Origin: a virus
Strand: one strand, 5' to 3'
Virus record (IMG/VR): IMGVR_UViG_3300048536_000039
Location: 1 to 24,332 of that record
Length of the DNA stretch: 24,332 nucleotides
Shown here: positions 729-10,410 of the stretch, piece by piece
Numbering within the stretch: position 1 is the first letter of the stretch
Layout: the number at the start of each line of letters is the position of its first letter
The notes under the pieces: generated by a model
What the model was told of the DNA's origin: nothing
The model's input: only the letters and a program-made list of their open reading frames with translations
Database searches by the model: none
Program-made: the position numbers and the translations under genes

Positions 729-904
729 ATGTTTAGCTAGGTTTACAGTTGGTTGATAGGTGGGTAGCTTTTGAGCCTATGGAATGGCAAGGTAAAACCT
801 CAATGAGGATTATCTATAAATTCAACCTATACGCCCACGCAAGGGACATGGGGGACCCCCCTGCATCTGCTAGCAATGTCGCCATATTTTTATCTGTGTG
901 AGTT

Positions 905-916
905 ACTTGTACAAGT
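905..916. promoter_or_regulatory. Perfect 12-bp palindrome (possible operator)
   Basis: ACTTGTACAAGT reads identically on both strands. It lies 130 bp upstream of the -35 box of the late promoter. A site of this form could bind a dimeric regulator; that role is inference from symmetry and position only. Confidence 0.4.
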
Positions 917-1045
917 TATTTGCACCCTTTAGGGTATCCCTGTAGGATACGCTGGGGGTTATAGGTGTATCTCCCGGAGGTGTTACTCCGATTATATCCA
1001 TTCTGACAGAAAAGTCAAGACATTTATGCCAAAATTATTTTTTAT

Positions 1046-1074
1046 TTGACATTAGGGTATTCTGTACGTATAAT
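1046..1074 (+). promoter_or_regulatory. Perfect-consensus sigma70 promoter for the late block
   Basis: TTGACA (1046-1051) and TATAAT (1069-1074) match the consensus at all 12 positions with a 17-bp spacer. The stretch just upstream is AT-rich, like an UP element. Transcription would start near 1081, giving a leader of about 90 bases before the first gene at 1174. No other promoter is evident before the terminase genes, so it probably starts the packaging and head operon. It implies use of the host housekeeping RNA polymerase. Confidence 0.88.
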
Positions 1075-1173: not shown

Positions 1174-1383
1174 GTGTTTGAAGCATTTGTACTAGTTTGT
1201 TACTTAGGACAAGAGTCCGATTGTAGGCAATTGCAAGATACACGAGGTCCTTATGCTACAGAAATGCTATGTAAGCAGCGAATTGTAGAAATAACAGTAG
1301 ACTTACCTAAATATCTACCTAGTTATCAACCAAAAGCGTATAGATGTGACAAATTTACTTCCACAAAAGACGAACCAGCGTGA
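1174..1383 (+). CDS. Small four-cysteine protein, first gene of the late operon
   Basis: A 69-residue protein starting with GTG at 1174; AGGAA at 1162-1166 is correctly spaced before it. It has a hydrophobic N-terminus (residues 4-12), four cysteines (C9, C17, C33, C58), a central DTRGPY segment and a Pro/Tyr-rich C-terminal part. Similar short Cys-containing proteins with a D-T-x-G-P-Y-x-T-E-x-x-C core occur in marine phage genomes, from memory and without assigned function. Its last 38 bases overlap the start of the small terminase gene, so translation of the two is probably coupled. The hydrophobic start could be a weak secretion or membrane signal, but this is not clear. Confidence 0.65.
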   Translation: MFEAFVLVCYLGQESDCRQLQDTRGPYATEMLCKQRIVEITVDLPKYLPSYQPKAYRCDKFTSTKDEPA

Positions 1384-1750
1384 AATATCACCACAACAAG
1401 AAGAATTTCTAACCAATCTGTTCGAGAATGGTGGCAATGTCACCGACGCAGCGTTAGCAGCGGGCTACTCAAAGGGCAGCGTAACGTGGTTAAAGACCAG
1501 TTTAGCCGATGAGATAATCAATCGCACAAAGAACGTACTGTCTATGCACGCTTTTAAGGCTGCTACACGGCTAGTAACGACAATAGACAACCCCGTACCC
1601 GAGAGAGGAGACGACCTACGCTTCAGGGCTGCAGAATCGCTTTTAAACAGGGTTGGCTTGGGAAAACAGGAAACAACCAACGTAAATGTACAGGCAGTGC
1701 ATGGAATAGTTCTGTTGCCGCCGAAGAAAGACGTTGTAATTGACGGATAA
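1346..1750 (+). CDS. terS: Terminase small subunit
   Basis: This 134-residue protein should recognise the viral DNA and feed it to the large terminase subunit. The N-terminal half has the layout of a helix-turn-helix DNA-binding domain (residues about 18-52: SPQQEEFLTNLF, then NVTDAALAAGYSKGSV), which is the usual arrangement in phage small terminases. A following helical region (about 60-110) would serve oligomerisation. It lies directly before the large subunit and overlaps it by 11 bases. The only plausible start is the GTG at 1346, inside the preceding gene and without a strong ribosome binding site, so expression probably depends on coupling. Confidence 0.78.
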   Translation: MTNLLPQKTNQREISPQQEEFLTNLFENGGNVTDAALAAGYSKGSVTWLKTSLADEIINRTKNVLSMHAFKAATRLVTTIDNPVPERGDDLRFRAAESLLNRVGLGKQETTNVNVQAVHGIVLLPPKKDVVIDG

Positions 1751-3425
1751 ACCCCAGAGAGGTCGCCCTAAGAAAGACCCCGAAGCACCTAAGCAAAGAT
1801 ATTTCCTGTCTGCTGCAGAAAAAGCAAGGCGACAGACACAGAAGAGATTACGTGACGCAAAGAAGCGTGCAGAAAAAACAACCAAAGTAGCAGAAAGTAA
1901 AAGAAGATATGCCAGAAAGCTTGAAGAGAAAGTTGGTAAGGTTGAGAAAGCTCTTAAGGGAGATGCAACTACCGTTATCGATACAGGGGAGTTGGCAAGC
2001 CTTCCTCCACCTGTCCAAGAACTTGTTGGAAATAGGGAAGTCGTGTTTCAGCCGAATGAAGGACCTCAAGAAGAGTTTCTGTCGTCTAGTGAAAGAGATG
2101 TTCTCTATGGAGGTGCTGCTGGTGGGGGCAAATCTTTCGCCTTGTTGGCAGACCCCCTTCGTTATTGCACTAATCCTAATCATAGGGGTCTTCTTCTCAG
2201 GCGTACTCTTGACGAACTTACTGAGTTAATAGACAAGTCACGACAACTCTACCCCAAAGCGTTTCCCGGTGCAAAGTTCAGGGAGTCAAAGTCAACGTGG
2301 CACTTCCCATCTGGAGCAACCATTTGGTTTACCTATCTAGACAAAGACAAAGATGTAACCCGATTTCAAGGACAAGCTTTCAACTGGATAGGGATAGACG
2401 AGATAACCCAATACCCAACACCTTACGTGTGGGATTACCTCCGATCAAGATTGAGAAGCACCGACCCCGAGTTGCAACAAAGTTTGTATATGAGGTGTAC
2501 TGCCAATCCGGGTGGAATCGGTGGGTGGTGGATTAAGAAGATGTACATCGACGTAGGTGAACACAACAAACCGTTCCCTGCATCTGATGTCGAAACAGGC
2601 AGACCTTTCTTGTGGCCGCAAGGACACGAAAAGGAAGGTCAACCTTTGTTCTATCGTAGGTTCATTCCTGCGAGACTTACGGACAACCCGTTCCTTATGG
2701 CAGATGGACAATATGAAGCTATGCTTCGTTCACTACCTGAAATAGAACGGAAGAGATTACTCGAAGGGGATTGGGATGTAGCCGATGGCTGTGCCTTCCC
2801 AGAATTTAGCAGAGCAAAACATGTGGTCGAGAGTTTTGAGTTACCTACCAACTGGCCCCGAATACGTGCCGCTGACTACGGGTATGCAAGTCCTTCTTGT
2901 GTCTTGTGGGGTGCTATTGACTGGGATAACAATATATGGATTTATCGTGAATTGTATGTAAAACAGTTGACAGCAGAACAATTAGCAGATAGAATACTAG
3001 AAGCAGAGCAATTAGACCCTCTACCTCACTATACAGTACTTGACTCCTCCTGTTGGAATAAGACAGGATTTGGTCCTTCCATAGCAGAAACAATGATGAG
3101 ATGTGGTGTTCGTTGGACACCGTCTGATCGTAACAGAATACAAGGTAAGATGGAAATACATCGTAGGCTTGCAGATGACCCAAGAACAGAAGAACCTAGA
3201 TTACGAGTGTTTTCTAATTGCAGCAACACTGTCAAGCAATTGGCAGCAATTCCTCTTTCCAAAACTAACAGCGAAGACGTAGACACTAAAGCAGAAGATC
3301 ACGCATACGATGCTCTAAGATATATGTTGATGACAAGGATGACAGGGTATGCAGCGATTCATCAGACGCTTAATGGCATCAAGGCTCAGGTCTATCAGGT
3401 GCAAAATGAAACATTCGGATATTAA
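1740..3425 (+). CDS. terL: Terminase large subunit (ATPase and nuclease)
   Basis: A 561-residue packaging motor protein that pumps DNA into the procapsid and cuts the concatemer. The ATPase domain shows Walker A GGAAGGGKS (124-132), Walker B ending in IDE (219-221) and a coupling motif CTANPGG (253-259). The RNase H-like nuclease domain offers acidic residues D379 (AADYG), D435 (VLDSS) and D520/D524 (EDHAYDALRY). Residues 1-75 are an unusual Lys/Arg-rich, probably helical extension with an AT-hook-like QRGRPKKDP (6-14). The start is a TTG at 1740 right after an in-frame stop, overlapping TerS, with a weak ribosome binding site; a lower expression level than the capsid genes would fit. Confidence 0.95.
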   Translation: MTDKPQRGRPKKDPEAPKQRYFLSAAEKARRQTQKRLRDAKKRAEKTTKVAESKRRYARKLEEKVGKVEKALKGDATTVIDTGELASLPPPVQELVGNREVVFQPNEGPQEEFLSSSERDVLYGGAAGGGKSFALLADPLRYCTNPNHRGLLLRRTLDELTELIDKSRQLYPKAFPGAKFRESKSTWHFPSGATIWFTYLDKDKDVTRFQGQAFNWIGIDEITQYPTPYVWDYLRSRLRSTDPELQQSLYMRCTANPGGIGGWWIKKMYIDVGEHNKPFPASDVETGRPFLWPQGHEKEGQPLFYRRFIPARLTDNPFLMADGQYEAMLRSLPEIERKRLLEGDWDVADGCAFPEFSRAKHVVESFELPTNWPRIRAADYGYASPSCVLWGAIDWDNNIWIYRELYVKQLTAEQLADRILEAEQLDPLPHYTVLDSSCWNKTGFGPSIAETMMRCGVRWTPSDRNRIQGKMEIHRRLADDPRTEEPRLRVFSNCSNTVKQLAAIPLSKTNSEDVDTKAEDHAYDALRYMLMTRMTGYAAIHQTLNGIKAQVYQVQNETFGY

Positions 3426-3428
3426 TAA

Positions 3429-5357
3429 ATGGATTTAGAATTATTTAAACAGAAGGTGCAAGATCGTTCACTAACTGTAGGTGAAGCTTTTGATTACGTT
3501 GCAGCCAGAAAAGATACAGAAAAACCAGATACAATAAGAGGTTTAAAAAACAATGTAGCTGTAGATTTAGATTCTAAGTTTTTTGACACATACAACACTA
3601 AAGAATTTTCAGACGCTCTAGAAGAGCCTACAAACAGGTGGCGAGAGTACAGTGTATTTGAAAATCAACTCAGCAAAGGTTTGAGATCGGCAAAAGTAAC
3701 CGACGTAAACTACGAGAAGCTTTCTGGTAAAGGTGGCTTAGCTCAAGAAGCGTTTGGTCTAAAAGGAGTCCAAGACAGACCTAAAGACCCAATGAGAGGA
3801 ACAATCTACTCTCGTGACTTTGACAGGGTATACAACAAAGCCTTATCTGATCCACTAATTAATCAAGAAGCAAAAGATTATTTAATTTATGAAAAATACA
3901 CAGGTCAAAGAGTTGAAACAAATATAGGCAAAGAAGGTTTAAAAATAACTGATCTTGCTGTAAGCACTGACCCAAACGGTAATGTTGTTGTTAATATAGC
4001 AGAAAAGAAAAGTAAAACTAAGACACGCCCTGCTGTTAAATACACAGGTGCGTTCGCACAATTTTTAGCTGGTAAAAAACAACAAGCTTTAGCAAGAGAA
4101 GCAGGTAGCGATCCTTCAACTAAAAACTTATTTGCTACTACTAAAGGCACTACAGAGAAAGTGTGGAATGTACACGTAAAGCCTGCCTTAGAAGCTGAGT
4201 TCAGTGACTCACTTCCGTCAGACGGTAAAGGTGGGGGTAAAGCTACCCCTAAAGTTTTAAGAAAAATACTAGCAAGACAACTAGTTGATGAATTTAAATA
4301 CCCTAGAGATTTAGTCAAAGGGTGGATGGGTCACGCAGGAGCGACAGTTACTGCACAAGGTGATTTGCTTGAGCAAAGTTATGTAGGCGTTATAACCGAC
4401 CCTAGAGTTGGAGAAATCTCAGATAACTTAATTAAGACAGAAGCTCTTAACTTAGGTAAACCTACTGTAAACGATATGTTCGTAACACGTTCACCAAACA
4501 CATCAAAAGGTTTTGCAGAAGGAAAAGCATACAATCCTCATTCTTCCCCTTACACGTTTGGTAAAGAAGATGTAAAGCAGTCTGCGACAGAACTAACAGA
4601 CATACAAAAGCAAACACTAACAGCAACTCAACAAACACAACTTAATGAAGCTCAAGTAAGATTATATGAGTCAGAGACTGCTAGAGATAAAGCAAGACAA
4701 GAACGCATCATAGCTTCACAAGACACAATGGTAGAAGACGTCAAAAAGAAAGAAGCTGAGAAAAAAGTGAGAGCAAAACTAAAAGCAGAATCCAAACTAC
4801 TCAATGCACCTGCATCTCCAGATGACTTGTCTGACGGTCTAAAAGAAAAGTTAGCTAAGTGGGGAATAACTTTAGGTGGGGGTACACAAGCTGTCTTAGG
4901 TGCTATAGGGGTTACAGGAATAGTTGCCGAAGCCAAAGCTGATTATGACAAATACAGAGAACAAGGAAGAGGCCCAGTTGTTTCAGGGTTGGGTGCCGCA
5001 GCAGAAACGGTAAGAGATGTAGCAGTAGAAGGTGGTTCAAGAGCAGTTTCAATGCTACCTAACATGTTACTTAGTTCTAGTCCTGCAGGAGAAGGTTCAG
5101 ATAAGCCACCTGAAGTAAATCCAAATGCACCCAAAGCTGAAGACATTCCTGATACAGCAAATCCAGAAACACTTCCACCCGAAGCATTAAGAGTTATGCA
5201 AGAAGACGCTAGCATGACTGACACAGATTTAGACCCTGAAGCAGGGTTTATTTCCCAAGCTGATGTAATGAAAAATCAGCAGATGGGTTCACCTACGTCT
5301 CAAGGCTTTATGAGTAAGTATGGTGAAAAAGATCAAGACCTACTACAAACAACTTAA
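3429..5357 (+). CDS. Tyrosine-recombinase-like domain protein within head gene cluster
   Basis: A 642-residue protein starting 4 bases after terL stops. Residues about 128-325 match the layout of the tyrosine recombinase (integrase) catalytic domain: R161 in YTGQRVETN, lysines of a beta-hairpin at 193-198, K275-x-x-R278, G301-H302 in WMGHAG, and Y318 in QSYVGV. The spacings (117 residues from R161 to R278, 24 from R278 to H302) are close to those of Xer and lambda-type enzymes; the 16-residue gap to the tyrosine is longer. Residues 60-120 could be a core-binding domain. The C-terminal half is different: a charged coiled coil (about 405-455), hydrophobic segments (480-500 and 515-549) and an acidic proline-rich tail. 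Usual integrases are 300-450 residues, so this is a fusion or a repurposed fold. Whether it cuts DNA is unknown. Confidence 0.62.
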   Translation: MDLELFKQKVQDRSLTVGEAFDYVAARKDTEKPDTIRGLKNNVAVDLDSKFFDTYNTKEFSDALEEPTNRWREYSVFENQLSKGLRSAKVTDVNYEKLSGKGGLAQEAFGLKGVQDRPKDPMRGTIYSRDFDRVYNKALSDPLINQEAKDYLIYEKYTGQRVETNIGKEGLKITDLAVSTDPNGNVVVNIAEKKSKTKTRPAVKYTGAFAQFLAGKKQQALAREAGSDPSTKNLFATTKGTTEKVWNVHVKPALEAEFSDSLPSDGKGGGKATPKVLRKILARQLVDEFKYPRDLVKGWMGHAGATVTAQGDLLEQSYVGVITDPRVGEISDNLIKTEALNLGKPTVNDMFVTRSPNTSKGFAEGKAYNPHSSPYTFGKEDVKQSATELTDIQKQTLTATQQTQLNEAQVRLYESETARDKARQERIIASQDTMVEDVKKKEAEKKVRAKLKAESKLLNAPASPDDLSDGLKEKLAKWGITLGGGTQAVLGAIGVTGIVAEAKADYDKYREQGRGPVVSGLGAAAETVRDVAVEGGSRAVSMLPNMLLSSSPAGEGSDKPPEVNPNAPKAEDIPDTANPETLPPEALRVMQEDASMTDTDLDPEAGFISQADVMKNQQMGSPTSQGFMSKYGEKDQDLLQTT

Positions 5358-5371
5358 ATAGGAGGGCAGTT

Positions 5372-5596
5372 ATGCCAGACAATAACTATAACTACGGTGC
5401 TTCATACATAATGAGCAGTGATAAAACTTCAGTTGATGACCCAATGGGATCAAATCAATTAACACGTGAAGGTAAAGACTTTGATATGTCAAACAACGGT
5501 AACAATGAGTTACAAGTTGATATGCCAAAGAAACAATCTAAACCAACAGTAGAAGCTTCTCTGTTTTCTATGGCTGACGATAAAAACTACTTCTAA
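5372..5596 (+). CDS. Small hydrophilic protein of unknown function
   Basis: A 74-residue protein between the recombinase-like gene and the portal gene. A strong ribosome binding site (AGGAGG at 5360-5365) precedes the ATG at 5372. The sequence is polar, rich in Asn, Asp, Ser and Lys, with no hydrophobic core segment, signal peptide or membrane helix, and is probably largely disordered. It is not recognised. Its position and strong initiation signal suggest a small virion or assembly factor, which is inference only. Confidence 0.7.
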   Translation: MPDNNYNYGASYIMSSDKTSVDDPMGSNQLTREGKDFDMSNNGNNELQVDMPKKQSKPTVEASLFSMADDKNYF

Positions 5597-5608: not shown

Positions 5609-7717
5609 ATGTCTGATAATTTTCTTCAACCTGAAGATGATACTGGCGTACCTATAGCTAATCCATCCGAGCAAATGCCCGGACTAGCAGGATATGTACG
5701 CAATAAGTTTGAGGATTCTGAAAATGGGAGACGCACCCATGAACACAGATGGCTACAAGCTTTTAAAAACTTCAGGGGAATATATGATTCAACGACACAG
5801 TATCGTGATTCTGAACGTTCCAAAGTCTTCATTAAAATAACAAAAACTAAGGTTCTTGCAGCATACGGACAGATAATAGATATTCTGTTTGCTAATAAAA
5901 AGTTTCCAGTTGTTGTTGAGTCAACTCCTATGCCAGAAGGTATAGAAGAGTTTGCCCACATGAAGACGCCCCTTGATGAAGCCACTGATCCGTATGGATT
6001 TGAGGGAGACGGAAGACAAGTTCCACCCGGAGCATTGCAAGCCAATGAGCCACACAAACTAGGAACTTACGATAAAGAATTTCCAGACATGTTAGCTAAA
6101 GGTCCTTCTAAGATGGGAGAACCTCAACTTAAACCTGCACAAGAAATGGCATTAAAGATGGAGAAGTGTATTCACGATCAGCTTCTTGATACTAATGCAG
6201 TCAATGTATTCAGGCAAGCTATCTTTGAAGCATCATTGTTAGGTACAGGAATTATCAAAGGACCATTTAACTTTTACAAAAAAGTTCACAAGTGGGAGAG
6301 AGATGAGAACGGACAAAGAAACTACGTTCCTTACGAAAAAATTGTACCACGTATAGAATATGTATCCTTGTGGGATTTTCATCCTGATCCGTCTGCAACA
6401 AGCATTGAAGATTGTGAATATGTAATACAAAGACACCGTATGAATCGTCAACAACTACGTGGTTTGATACAAAGACCTTATTTTGATGCAGCAGCAATAG
6501 AAGAGTGTCTTGCTAAGGGTGCAAACTACGAAGACAAGTATTACGAAGATACTATTAGAGAAGACGAGACCGAACCCTACTACCAAGAGAACAGATTTGA
6601 AGTTCTTGAATATTGGGGAGTCATTGACAAGAAATATGCTGATGAAGTTGGCATGGATGGTGTCAATGAAATGTCAGAGTTTGATCAAGTACAAGTAAAT
6701 GTGTGGGTGTGTGGTAGCATGGTTATTCGCTGTGTAGCTAATCCGTTTACCCCTGCTAGAATACCGTTCCAAGCATTTCCATTTGAAATAAATCCTTATC
6801 AACTATGGGGAGTTGGCGTTGCAGAGAACATGGAAGATGCACAGTTGCTTATGAATGGTCACGTAAGAATGGCTATTGATAACTTGGCACTTGCAGGTAA
6901 CCTTGTGTTTGACGTAGACGAAGCAAGCTTAGTTCCCGGACAAAACATGGATATATTTCCCGGAAAGATATTCCGTAGACAGTCAGGGGTAACAGGAACT
7001 GCAATCAACGGTCTTAAGTTTCCAAACACTGCAGGTGAGAACATACAGATGTATCAAATATCTCGTCAACTTGCAGATGAAGAGACGGGCATACCATCAA
7101 TTATGCACGGACAAACAGGTGTAACAGGAACAGGTAGAACTGCAGCAGGTTTATCAATGCTTATGGGTTCTGCAGGTCTTGCAATGAAGACAGTTATAAA
7201 GAATATAGATGATAATTTATTAAAGCCAATCGGTGAAGCATACTTTCAATGGAATATGCAGTTTAACGAAAATGTAGATGACATAGAAGGTGACTTAGAA
7301 ATCAAACCTCGTGGGGTTGCAGCCGTAATGCAAAAAGAAGTAAGAAGTCAACGTTTGACATCCTTATTACAGACGGTAGCAAACCCTATGCTTGCACCGT
7401 TTATAAAAATACCTAACTTAATGAGAGAATTAGCAATAGCTCAAGACATTGACCCTGATACACTAGTCAATGATGCAAATGAAGCTCAGATATACGCAGA
7501 AATGTTGAAAGGAATGATGCCAGATGCTCAACAAGGACCAAGCGAGGGTGCTGACCCCAATAGTCAACAGCAAGGAATGGGACAACCTAGTGGAGTATCT
7601 CAACGACCTTCGGGAACTGACAATCAAGGGAATGGTAATGGCACAATCGGAGTCGGAGCTACGCCAACTGCAGGGGAAGCTGGCTTTACTGGAAATGCTC
7701 CTCAATTTGAAGAATAG
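5609..7717 (+). CDS. Portal protein
   Basis: A 702-residue protein that should form the dodecameric ring at the unique head vertex, through which DNA enters and leaves. The N-terminal region (residues 25-115) has the portal signature of an aromatic, basic helical segment (HRWLQAFKNFRGIY, then RSKVFIKITKTKVLAAYG) with a following strand on viral DNA-entry portals of marine podoviruses. The long middle, rich in Trp, Tyr and acidic residues (DFHPDPSA, RIPFQAFPFEINPYQLWGVG), and the late helical region are typical. The last ~65 residues are Gln/Gly/Ser/Asn-rich and look disordered; another gene is read out of frame through the same DNA (7524-7745). The ATG follows AAGG with suitable spacing. Length is in the range of podovirus portals. 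Confidence 0.9.
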   Translation: MSDNFLQPEDDTGVPIANPSEQMPGLAGYVRNKFEDSENGRRTHEHRWLQAFKNFRGIYDSTTQYRDSERSKVFIKITKTKVLAAYGQIIDILFANKKFPVVVESTPMPEGIEEFAHMKTPLDEATDPYGFEGDGRQVPPGALQANEPHKLGTYDKEFPDMLAKGPSKMGEPQLKPAQEMALKMEKCIHDQLLDTNAVNVFRQAIFEASLLGTGIIKGPFNFYKKVHKWERDENGQRNYVPYEKIVPRIEYVSLWDFHPDPSATSIEDCEYVIQRHRMNRQQLRGLIQRPYFDAAAIEECLAKGANYEDKYYEDTIREDETEPYYQENRFEVLEYWGVIDKKYADEVGMDGVNEMSEFDQVQVNVWVCGSMVIRCVANPFTPARIPFQAFPFEINPYQLWGVGVAENMEDAQLLMNGHVRMAIDNLALAGNLVFDVDEASLVPGQNMDIFPGKIFRRQSGVTGTAINGLKFPNTAGENIQMYQISRQLADEETGIPSIMHGQTGVTGTGRTAAGLSMLMGSAGLAMKTVIKNIDDNLLKPIGEAYFQWNMQFNENVDDIEGDLEIKPRGVAAVMQKEVRSQRLTSLLQTVANPMLAPFIKIPNLMRELAIAQDIDPDTLVNDANEAQIYAEMLKGMMPDAQQGPSEGADPNSQQQGMGQPSGVSQRPSGTDNQGNGNGTIGVGATPTAGEAGFTGNAPQFEE

Positions 7718-7745
7718 TCACAGGGAAGTCGTAAAGAATGTCTGA
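7524..7745 (+). CDS. Small helical protein overlapping the portal 3' end in another frame
   Basis: A 73-residue protein read in a different frame from the portal; 194 of its 222 bases are shared. Support: AAAGGAA at 7508-7514 is about 10 bases before the ATG, the protein is a coherent acidic/hydrophobic helical sequence with heptad-like leucines (LRQLQGKLALLEMLLNLK), and its stop lies 8 bases into the next gene. Small proteins with an L-Q-G-x-x-x-L-x-x-L-L-N-L motif beside portal genes are familiar to me from other marine phages, function unknown. The portal's frame here encodes only low-complexity sequence, as expected where one frame is free to carry another gene. A coiled-coil head or portal accessory role is a guess. 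Confidence 0.75.
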   Translation: MLNKDQARVLTPIVNSKEWDNLVEYLNDLRELTIKGMVMAQSESELRQLQGKLALLEMLLNLKNSHREVVKNV

Positions 7746-10410
7746 CATTTTTGCTACATTAGATTTTGCTAGTGATTTTTTTGGTCAACCCGATAGAAAC
7801 AAACAAAAAATATCACGAAGAGAATACATATCTCAAGATGTAGATTACTACAGGCAAGGTTTAGATTCAACAGGTATCAAAGTAAGTGATCCTGAACGTT
7901 GGAGTGACATAGATGATAATGATGAAGATCGTAAACGTGATATAGATATAAGTCAGGTTGGCATTAGTGAGGGAGACAATGAATCAACTGCTGACATAGG
8001 TAATTTATCTTCGGGGGTTGATAACGCATTAAGTAGTTCTTCTTCTCTCGGTAACATCAATGCTAGTTTTGTTGACTACAATACGTCTTTACAAAACGCA
8101 GGTTTTAAAGATAGAAGTCAAAGTTTCCTAAGTAAACAATTTGGAATATCACTTGCTAGTGTTCCTCAAAGTGGAAAAGAAGCAAAAGAAGATATAAAAT
8201 CTCTAAAAACAGAAAAGGGCATACAAACTTTAGCTACAAGTGCTGCAAAAAAAGGATTGGGGTTGTTAGGAATTAACCCTATAGCTACAAGTTTAATAAC
8301 TGGATTTGCAACAGGAACAAAAGTTCAAGACCCACTAGGTCAACCTTCATTTAGACCTAATCACGCTGTTTTAGGCACAGTTATGGATATAAACTTTTCC
8401 ATGCAAAGTAATAACATATCACAGAGTATAGCGGCTATGAACGCAAATTTAGACGTTCCATATTCACAAAGAGGAGCAGTAGGTTATTTTGGGTATATAA
8501 ATGGACAAGTTGTAAGCAGGGCCCCTCTAGGAAAAACTTTTACTGGAGTTACAGATTTATCAATAGAGCAGTTGAGTAATTTAGACGCACTTAGTAAAGG
8601 ATTCACTACCTCTGGGTATAATAATCAGACAGAAAGAGGGGAGCAGTTGGCTATGGGAACTGGAGTTGATTCTTTGGGTCAAACAACATCAGGCTATGGT
8701 AACAACGGATTTCATCACGGTATAAATGGTTCGTCAAGAACTGGAACTATGTCAGACGCTAAAGCAGCTGCAAAAGGATATGGTATTACTACCAAACAAT
8801 TTACTGACATCTTATCAAAAGTACGTAAAAATAATAATTTTTGGGGTAAGCCTAAAAACGATAAACTTACTTTGGATTTTCTAGCCAGAAAACAATACAG
8901 AGACAATGCTACTGCAGATGGTCCGGGAAATTTAGGTCTTGAGACTGATATTAATGCTCAGGTAGATATTCAAAATGCTTTAAGTAAGGGAATAGGCGTA
9001 AATGAATTTGGGGGTGTAACTCAAGACACACTATCGGATGTTCAAGACATAAATGCTGCTAATCCCGGAATAGGAACTTCTACAGGTGCAGGAGCAGTCG
9101 GATCAACAGGTGGTTTAAGTGAAACTTATGGTGGTGGCTCTGAAGGCACTGACTCTAATGACTCTAACTCTAGTGATATGGGGGGTATGACTGCCAAAGG
9201 TGGCTTTATTGGCAAAAAGAACTTTGCATTAGGGGGCAGAGGAGATGCCGAACCTGCAGGATTTATTGGAGGTCCTCCTGAACAATTTAATGATCAAACA
9301 ACCATTGCAGACGACATTCCACTTAAAGTAAAAGATGGTACATTTGTAATTAATGCACCTGCCGTAGAGTATGCAGGGTCTATAGATGTACAAAAAATGT
9401 TAGCTGAAGGTTATAAAAAAGCCATGACTAGAGATATAGGGGTTGACAAAAACTTTAGAATTGGTAAAATACCAAGTAGAGAAGAGTTAGATATACAAAT
9501 CTCTCGTGGTGAAGTTGTAGTCCCACCCCATGTAGCAAAAGCAATTGGCTACGACAGATTAGAAAAAATCAATAACAGAGGTAAGCGTGAAGTAGAACGC
9601 AGGCAGAAAGCTGGCGATCAGGAAAAGGTACAGGCTGGTCAAGGTTTCGCTGCAAAAGGTGGTAACTTTGCTACAGGCGATGGCGTATTTACCATAGACA
9701 AAGTTGCCGATTCCTACAAAGAAAAATACGCAACTCCACAATTAGCAAGACAAGCAACTATGAAACTTGCTAGAAAAATGCCACTAGCTGATGCTTTAGC
9801 CATACTTATGTGGGGTGAAGCTAAAAACTTAGGAGACGAAGGACTTGAAGGTGCAGCTCACGTTTTAATAAACAGGGCAAATGCAGAGAACTATCCGGGT
9901 TTCGGCAAAGATATATACAACGAGATAACAAGAACCTATAAAGGTGCAAAAAAAGGCGAAAGAATTTTTGAGTTCAATGCCTATGAGCCTACAAAGTTCA
10001 GAGAGACTATAAAAAGATTTAAGAAAGATAAAGACGCCTACCTTAGAGTAAGAAATATTGCTGAAGAAGTTATGGCAGGTGCTAGAAAAGATTTTACTAA
10101 CAACGCTTTATTTTTTTGGAATCCTAATACTTCAGGAAGCAGTTGGTACAAAGGCAAAGTAAACAGAAAAGAATTTAAAGAAACAACTAGAACAGTTAAT
10201 TCTAAGGACAAAAAAGTTTTACATGTGTATCACGTACCGTCTGATTTTAAAATGGATACAAAATTAAGTACAAAAACAATTAGTCCAAAACAATTTGAAC
10301 CTTCAACACCAATACCTAGTAATATACCTTTACCTATGAAACGACCTGATGAGATAAAGGATCGCAGTGATGATGGAGGTTTTTTAGATTATCTTAGAAA
10401 ATTATTTTAA
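7738..10410 (+). CDS. Large virion-type protein with C-terminal SleB-like cell wall hydrolase
   Basis: An 890-residue protein. Residues about 684-832 resemble the SleB/cell wall hydrolase family that cleaves peptidoglycan: an alanine/leucine-rich helix, the MWGEAKN motif with probable catalytic E694, then AAHVLINRAN, and later LFFWNPNTSGSSWY. Upstream are a polar Ser/Asn/Asp/Gly-rich region (1-480), then a Gly-rich GGFIGKKNFALGGRGDAE segment and two related units (about 525-565 and 580-620) of the pattern strand, (D/R)GxxV(I/V), then a helix. The tail (855-890) is Pro-rich and basic. Lying between portal and scaffold rather than with the lysis genes, it is more likely a virion-associated or ejected protein that opens the wall during entry. 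The start at 7738 has GGGAAG upstream and overlaps the previous gene. Confidence 0.68.
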   Translation: MSDIFATLDFASDFFGQPDRNKQKISRREYISQDVDYYRQGLDSTGIKVSDPERWSDIDDNDEDRKRDIDISQVGISEGDNESTADIGNLSSGVDNALSSSSSLGNINASFVDYNTSLQNAGFKDRSQSFLSKQFGISLASVPQSGKEAKEDIKSLKTEKGIQTLATSAAKKGLGLLGINPIATSLITGFATGTKVQDPLGQPSFRPNHAVLGTVMDINFSMQSNNISQSIAAMNANLDVPYSQRGAVGYFGYINGQVVSRAPLGKTFTGVTDLSIEQLSNLDALSKGFTTSGYNNQTERGEQLAMGTGVDSLGQTTSGYGNNGFHHGINGSSRTGTMSDAKAAAKGYGITTKQFTDILSKVRKNNNFWGKPKNDKLTLDFLARKQYRDNATADGPGNLGLETDINAQVDIQNALSKGIGVNEFGGVTQDTLSDVQDINAANPGIGTSTGAGAVGSTGGLSETYGGGSEGTDSNDSNSSDMGGMTAKGGFIGKKNFALGGRGDAEPAGFIGGPPEQFNDQTTIADDIPLKVKDGTFVINAPAVEYAGSIDVQKMLAEGYKKAMTRDIGVDKNFRIGKIPSREELDIQISRGEVVVPPHVAKAIGYDRLEKINNRGKREVERRQKAGDQEKVQAGQGFAAKGGNFATGDGVFTIDKVADSYKEKYATPQLARQATMKLARKMPLADALAILMWGEAKNLGDEGLEGAAHVLINRANAENYPGFGKDIYNEITRTYKGAKKGERIFEFNAYEPTKFRETIKRFKKDKDAYLRVRNIAEEVMAGARKDFTNNALFFWNPNTSGSSWYKGKVNRKEFKETTRTVNSKDKKVLHVYHVPSDFKMDTKLSTKTISPKQFEPSTPIPSNIPLPMKRPDEIKDRSDDGGFLDYLRKLF

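Follow-up and report, generated by a model that had tools for sequence, protein, structure and literature searches.

A divergent, allele-swapping tyrosine recombinase between terminase and portal in HMO-2011-like marine podophages, possibly delivered with the virion

What would a tyrosine recombinase be doing among the packaging and head genes of a phage? The question is raised by a viral record of 24,332 bases (IMGVR_UViG_3300048536_000039), analysed at full length and hereafter the window, with the gene order TerS, TerL, recombinase ORF, 74-aa gene, portal, 890-aa gene, scaffold-like gene and major capsid protein. The genes and parts of the window listed here lie on the + strand. The terminase small subunit (TerS, 1346..1750; phrog_51, 4.6e-5) and large subunit (TerL, 1740..3425; phrog_979, 2e-59) precede the ORF in question (3429..5357), which starts with ATG, encodes 642 aa and has the TerL stop 3 nt before its start. 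Beyond it lie a conserved 74-aa gene in the recombinase-portal gap (5372..5596; homologues at 70 loci), the portal (5609..7717; phrog_332, 2.7e-78) and an 890-aa hypervariable protein with the tail GGFLDYLRKLF (7738..10410). The portal is 44-51% identical to HMO-2011-type phage portals (HTVC033P, at 51%, HTVC115P, HMO-2011 and CRP phages). The operon, its start bracketed by a terminator-like hairpin (529-562) and a sigma-70-like promoter of perfect consensus (12/12; 1046..1074), is unbroken, and this, with the TerL-portal position, bears out the late head operon location proposed in an earlier note on this DNA; we infer that the recombinase is made late, from the packaging/head operon. No ribosome-binding site is visible for the recombinase ORF, whose translation may rely on coupling to TerL. 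The 74-aa gene has a strong ribosome-binding sequence, AGGAGGG.

Taken alone, the window protein had no significant match in Pfam, PHROGs, PDB or NCBIfam and no cultured-phage match by tblastn against phages; NCBIfam and PADLOC searches gave no consistent match, and its close relatives in IMG/VR number five. Gathering relatives via portal similarity yielded 80 loci, and all main-clade loci with sufficient upstream sequence have a large ORF of up to 791 aa in the slot between TerL and portal (the shortest ones being truncated by contig ends). The 63 distinct slot proteins (that of the window and 62 relatives) form a single blastp-linked set in which the recombinase residues are alignable throughout (63/63). 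The Pfam integrase PF00589 is matched by 28 of the 63 and the PHROG integrase phrog_1 by 33, while the family profile matches Tn1549 Int (7e-10), a XerC-like protein (1.5e-7) and XerD (2.4e-6), besides the integrase of an MRSA strain and XerA and XerH chains. The slot protein thus almost certainly belongs to the tyrosine recombinase superfamily, the identity claimed at the outset and now borne out by sequence profile, fold and conserved catalytic set, and would, judged by its sequences, constitute a new and very divergent subfamily. Because annotation from a single sequence misses the enzyme, phages carrying it may be scored as having no lysogeny or recombination genes. For subgroups IV-X of the HMO-2011-type phages, to which the present clade may or may not belong, a published survey reported that lysogeny-related genes could not be identified (PMC9038755).

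The active site is the most constant part of this family. An alignment of the 63 slot proteins (16% mean identity), built without structural input and numbered on the window protein, has only three invariant columns, R161, R278 and Y318, with K198 conserved in >90%; when a sister clade was added, giving an alignment of 72 catalytic regions (13% mean identity), the same three were again the sole invariants. These residues are the first catalytic arginine (R161, 3909..3911; 72/72), the catalytic lysine of the beta hairpin (K198, 4020..4022; K in 65/72, R in 3/72), the second catalytic arginine, in a KxxR context in the window protein (R278, 4260..4262; R in 72/72), and the predicted nucleophile (Y318, 4380..4382; Y in 72/72). 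The family therefore has the catalytic-domain fold, the nucleophilic Tyr with two Arg and the beta-hairpin Lys by which tyrosine recombinases are recognised. At HIII, defined as His or Trp, residue 302 (4332..4334) is H in 40/72, including the window, and R in 32/72. A His or Lys three residues before the second Arg (HII) is common but not universal in known tyrosine recombinases and was handled as non-defining for membership; here this position, 275, is variable (K in 7/72, Y in 13, S in 12, a gap in 32) and is K in the window. Every residue named in the earlier note (R161, K193, K194, K196 and K198, K275-x-x-R278, H302 and Y318) is present at its position, and the agreement goes beyond coincidence, but conservation in relatives of the R-K-K/H-R-H-Y set that they make up holds for R161, K198, R278 and Y318 and fails for K275, with 302 being H or R; likewise, of the lysines at 193-198 assigned to the active site, K198 is the catalytic one and K193, K194 and K196 are not conserved.

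On this pattern of conservation, the family is very probably catalytically competent. The same pattern weighs against a recombinase fold kept as a non-catalytic structural component of the head or portal ring, which the head-operon position and the fusion to a long helix might otherwise suggest and which had been put forward as an option: a scaffold would conserve surfaces, whereas the most conserved positions here are the catalytic R, R, Y and nearly K. Because R-R-Y is invariant, and K nearly so, while almost all else varies, we regard such a role as highly improbable.

In predicted structure, the recombinase part covers residues about 1-345 (core-binding plus catalytic), instead of the 128-325 first assigned, because a core-binding-type domain is predicted at the N-terminus. 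This helical, core-binding-like domain (residues 1-110, 3429..3758; T16 nearly invariant, AlphaFold pLDDT mostly >80) is reached, to residues 6-15, by structural alignments with Tn1549 Int, lambda Int and XerH. The catalytic domain (residues 118-345, 3780..4463), besides its profile matches, aligns with XerH over 164 residues at 3.6 A (VIA-align Z 10.7). The remaining 297 residues form a C-terminal extension and agree with the long half, with coiled coil and hydrophobic segments, expected from the single sequence: the AlphaFold model has a coiled-coil-like helix of 69 residues (391-459, 4599..4805), then a Gly-rich hydrophobic segment of low pLDDT (481-505, 4869..4943), and near the end stands a GFM tail motif (626-628, 5304..5312). 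The AlphaFold domain model has a pLDDT of 87, and the N-terminal part of the full model is also confident. Profile search and structure prediction, the checks suggested earlier, concur: the former gave E about 7e-10, and the 50 structural matches listed for the domain model (Z 8.3-10.8) comprise tyrosine recombinases and type IB topoisomerases and nothing else. The structural alignments end at model residues 316-318, opposite Cre 324, human topoisomerase I 722-723 and XerH 344; Cre Y324 and human topoisomerase I Y723 are the nucleophilic tyrosines of those enzymes. Residues 304-322, which include Y318, are low in model confidence, and the active site is read here from the sequence alignments.

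Compared with known tyrosine recombinases and phage integrases (PF00589 and phrog_1; Tn1549 Int, XerH and lambda Int), the slot protein shares the fold, the core-binding-then-catalytic order and R-K-R-H-Y, but differs in that HII is not conserved, H302 is replaced by R in nearly half the family, and the H-Y spacing is 16 in the window protein instead of the usual 9 residues. It differs further in its ~300-residue C-terminal extension, head-operon location and whole-ORF allele swapping.

A telomere resolvase, or a type IB topoisomerase-like enzyme, acting on packaged or replicating DNA had to be considered, for Foldseek ranked TelA and TelK first and second with the full model, chains of type IB topoisomerases give a structural-alignment Z of about 9.7, and HII is often K, S or Y and not H, as it is often not His in TelA and TelK, which share the fold. 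TelK is also similar in length to the slot protein. With the domain model, however, Foldseek placed XerH, Tre and Cre at the top and the telomere resolvases were tied or lower, Z is tied with integrases, and the sequence profile prefers integrases and Xer to Tel. Nor was a palindromic target found: six long contigs have no long inverted repeats for inversion or hairpin telomeres, and no invertible segment or tos-like palindrome, bar one 20-bp palindrome in contig G004, and the complete relative G001 has no long palindrome, and no inverted repeat in a blastn self-search; the window has an imperfect 30-bp palindrome at 896-925. We therefore consider such an enzyme very unlikely.

With one sequence, the earlier reader could not have noticed two features that emerge from the relatives: the slot is always recombinase-filled in this clade, and its alleles are swapped wholesale. 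The recombinase occupies the TerL-portal slot in every readable HMO-2011-like marine podophage of this portal clade, and a literature search gave no account of a tyrosine recombinase at this position. A further set of portal relatives reveals a sister clade whose slot recombinases (L216-L234; 14 loci with a large slot protein) are divergent; a few of them (L224, L225 and L228 among others) are so divergent that the fourth catalytic residue is uncertain. The slot protein of L223 (772-3552) has 927 aa, with an N-terminal canonical integrase domain (E 6.6e-20) and about 650 residues beyond. The cultured HMO-2011-type phages checked have no recombinase gene between TerL and portal, and the recombinase state needs two changes on the portal tree, a quick tree with long outgroup branches.

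Constancy of place is coupled to extreme variability of sequence. Over 1,540 pairs, mean amino-acid identity is 82 for TerL, 80 for the portal and 20 for the recombinase, and the rank correlation of identities, 0.48 between TerL and portal, is 0.02 between TerL and recombinase. Near-identical phages differ by a swap of the whole recombinase ORF: between the window and L014, TerL DNA is 98.7% identical up to base 3432, blastn finds no match in the recombinase ORF, and identity is back at 5357. The sharp boundaries at the start and stop codons need not mark the places of crossover, because the alleles have no shared DNA homology inside the gene. Conversely, portal identity is only 77-82% between some phages that share recombinases >60% identical, and so the alleles move horizontally. 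A block at 4878-5141, at whose start lies the Gly-rich hydrophobic segment, differs even between same-allele phages. The operon's other hypervariable gene, for the 890-aa protein (7738-10410), differs in a middle block (mainly 8450-9220) between phages whose flanks are >90% identical. Co-swapping of its alleles with those of the recombinase, suggested by inspection, did not reach significance when the portals of a pair were 90% or more identical (Fisher p 0.16 and 0.27), which weighs against the virion-delivery reading set out below. The catalytic half itself is hypervariable and does not follow the backbone phylogeny; the combination of a fixed active site with whole-gene exchange points to strong selection, through diversifying exchange, on DNA-site or partner specificity.

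Such exchange would be rewarded by integrase/attB switching if the enzyme were a lysogeny integrase in an unusual place, integrating the phage into the host chromosome from an attP inside its own ORF, since allele and site would then travel together in whole-ORF swaps. It is the only tyrosine recombinase found in long contigs, which have no second integrase, and likewise the only one in G001; PF13408, a serine recombinase zinc-ribbon family, is absent from the 16 contigs searched. Among related phages, cultured HMO-2011 and CRP-212 have an ordinary integrase elsewhere in the genome, and CRP-3 of the same group integrates (PMC9038755). That HMO-2011-type integrase (HMO-2011, CRP-212 and CRP-3) is likewise a tyrosine recombinase, but an ordinary one of 300-370 aa, recognised by Pfam and located upstream of the replication module (PMC9038755), whereas the slot protein lies elsewhere and its window copy goes unrecognised. 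Against lysogeny, no family member was present as a prophage among the 1,049 genomes sampled from three classes, where the matches were ordinary integrases, and no clade portal occurs above 64% identity in genome contigs; a first search of genome contigs with the family likewise gave no relative. Moreover, G001 encodes RNR, DNA polymerase, helicase, primase, methyltransferase, T7-type endonuclease I and HNH endonucleases, with no lysogeny module among the families listed (the best 25 PHROGs families). A lysogeny integrase is hence an unlikely explanation. One genome match of 591 aa, at L144, was rejected as a relative, being part of a different two-recombinase element with no phage head genes: in a bacterial genome, two large tyrosine recombinases of 376 and 591 aa lie side by side with overlapping ends.

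Alternatively, a Cre- or Xer-like enzyme might act inside the cell late in infection, resolving multimers or circularising genomes with terminal redundancy through a site that lies within or beside the recombinase gene and not far from where packaging begins, with a C-terminal half that merely regulates it or contacts terminase or portal. XerH, Tre and Cre head the domain-model Foldseek list, the assembly of G001 closes into a circle through a 124-bp terminal overlap, and about 2.5 kb before the gene, adjoining TerS, stands a conserved noncoding element of ~100 bp (837..940, with an imperfect 30-bp palindrome at 896-925; present in about 30 clade contigs), perhaps a cos/pac or regulatory site. 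P1 cre-lox lies near pac, so that P1 Cre resembles the slot protein both in catalytic fold and in a gene near the packaging region; the slot recombinase differs in its fused C-terminal half, its late head operon and the absence of any lox-like site found. The recombinase gene and its surroundings show no conspicuous lox- or dif-like repeat, and the noncoding element, considered as an allele-specific recombination site upstream of TerS, varies with the backbone and not with the recombinase allele. This explanation also leaves the long C-terminal half unaccounted for, and we judge it rather unlikely.

That C-terminal half behaves as a separate module. Between L022, L023 and L024 the C-terminal half is shared and the catalytic half is not; in seven pairs it is the catalytic half alone that is shared. 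The similarity of the C-terminal half goes with that of the portal (rho 0.33) and, less closely, with those of the 890-aa protein (0.25) and the 74-aa gene (0.18), but not with that of TerL, whereas the catalytic half tracks no head gene or TerL strongly (portal rho 0.10); linkage could be a partial cause of the C-terminal/portal correlation. A tail motif, [GSADNQE][GSDN]F[ILVM], occurs in the last 40 aa of 49/63 recombinases, compared with 2.8 in shuffles; at the same place xGF[ILVM] is likewise enriched in the 890-aa protein (23/61 copies) and absent from the TerL, portal, scaffold and capsid proteins. This xGF tail, though a short motif, is the main support in sequence for a link between recombinase and head. 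No homology was detected between the C-terminal half and either the 890-aa protein or those slot proteins of sister phages that are not recombinases. From these sequence features, we put an association of the slot recombinase with virion or head at a little short of an even chance.

Our best overall reading is a tentative one: an active recombinase would be made late, its C-terminal half would be tied to the head, and it would probably be delivered by the virion. Residues 1-345 would bind and recombine DNA via a Y318 covalent intermediate; the C-terminal half, with its long helix, hydrophobic stretch and xGF tail, would anchor the enzyme to head or portal and thereby bring a few copies of it into the virion; and the injected enzyme would act on the genome upon arrival in the next cell, possibly by closing it into a circle or by linking it with another replicon, either the host's or a co-infecting one. 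That the enzyme travels with the genome and acts at entry is conceivable but somewhat doubtful, and the fuller proposal, in which abundant marine phages deliver a recombinase bearing a C-terminal loading tag and swap its specificity alleles like an immunity or receptor gene, is no firmer. A functional analogy might be drawn with the N4 virion RNA polymerase, which is delivered with the phage genome (PMC12633501); the slot protein is a different enzyme and a candidate for packaging. An active site that stays constant in a protein otherwise exchanged wholesale between nearly identical viruses, and encoded amid head genes, suggests a previously undescribed DNA-rearranging step tied to particle making or injection in a common marine virus group. 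If packaged, the recombinase would give phages a novel means of acting on DNA just as they enter a cell, and the slot would amount to a natural library of divergent recombinases at a single genomic address.

Outside these clades the slot has other contents. In a further sister lineage it is empty or filled with unrelated non-recombinase proteins of 209-507 aa with a GGK-type tail; those of L156-L189 (as L183, 3430-4677, and L170, 616-2136) have a conserved tail like YAxGGKVYSxxxRKPK. Sinorhizobium phage phiM6 has an SGNH/GDSL hydrolase gene immediately before the portal (L011, 4316-5923), hinting that the TerL-portal slot accepts different enzymes.
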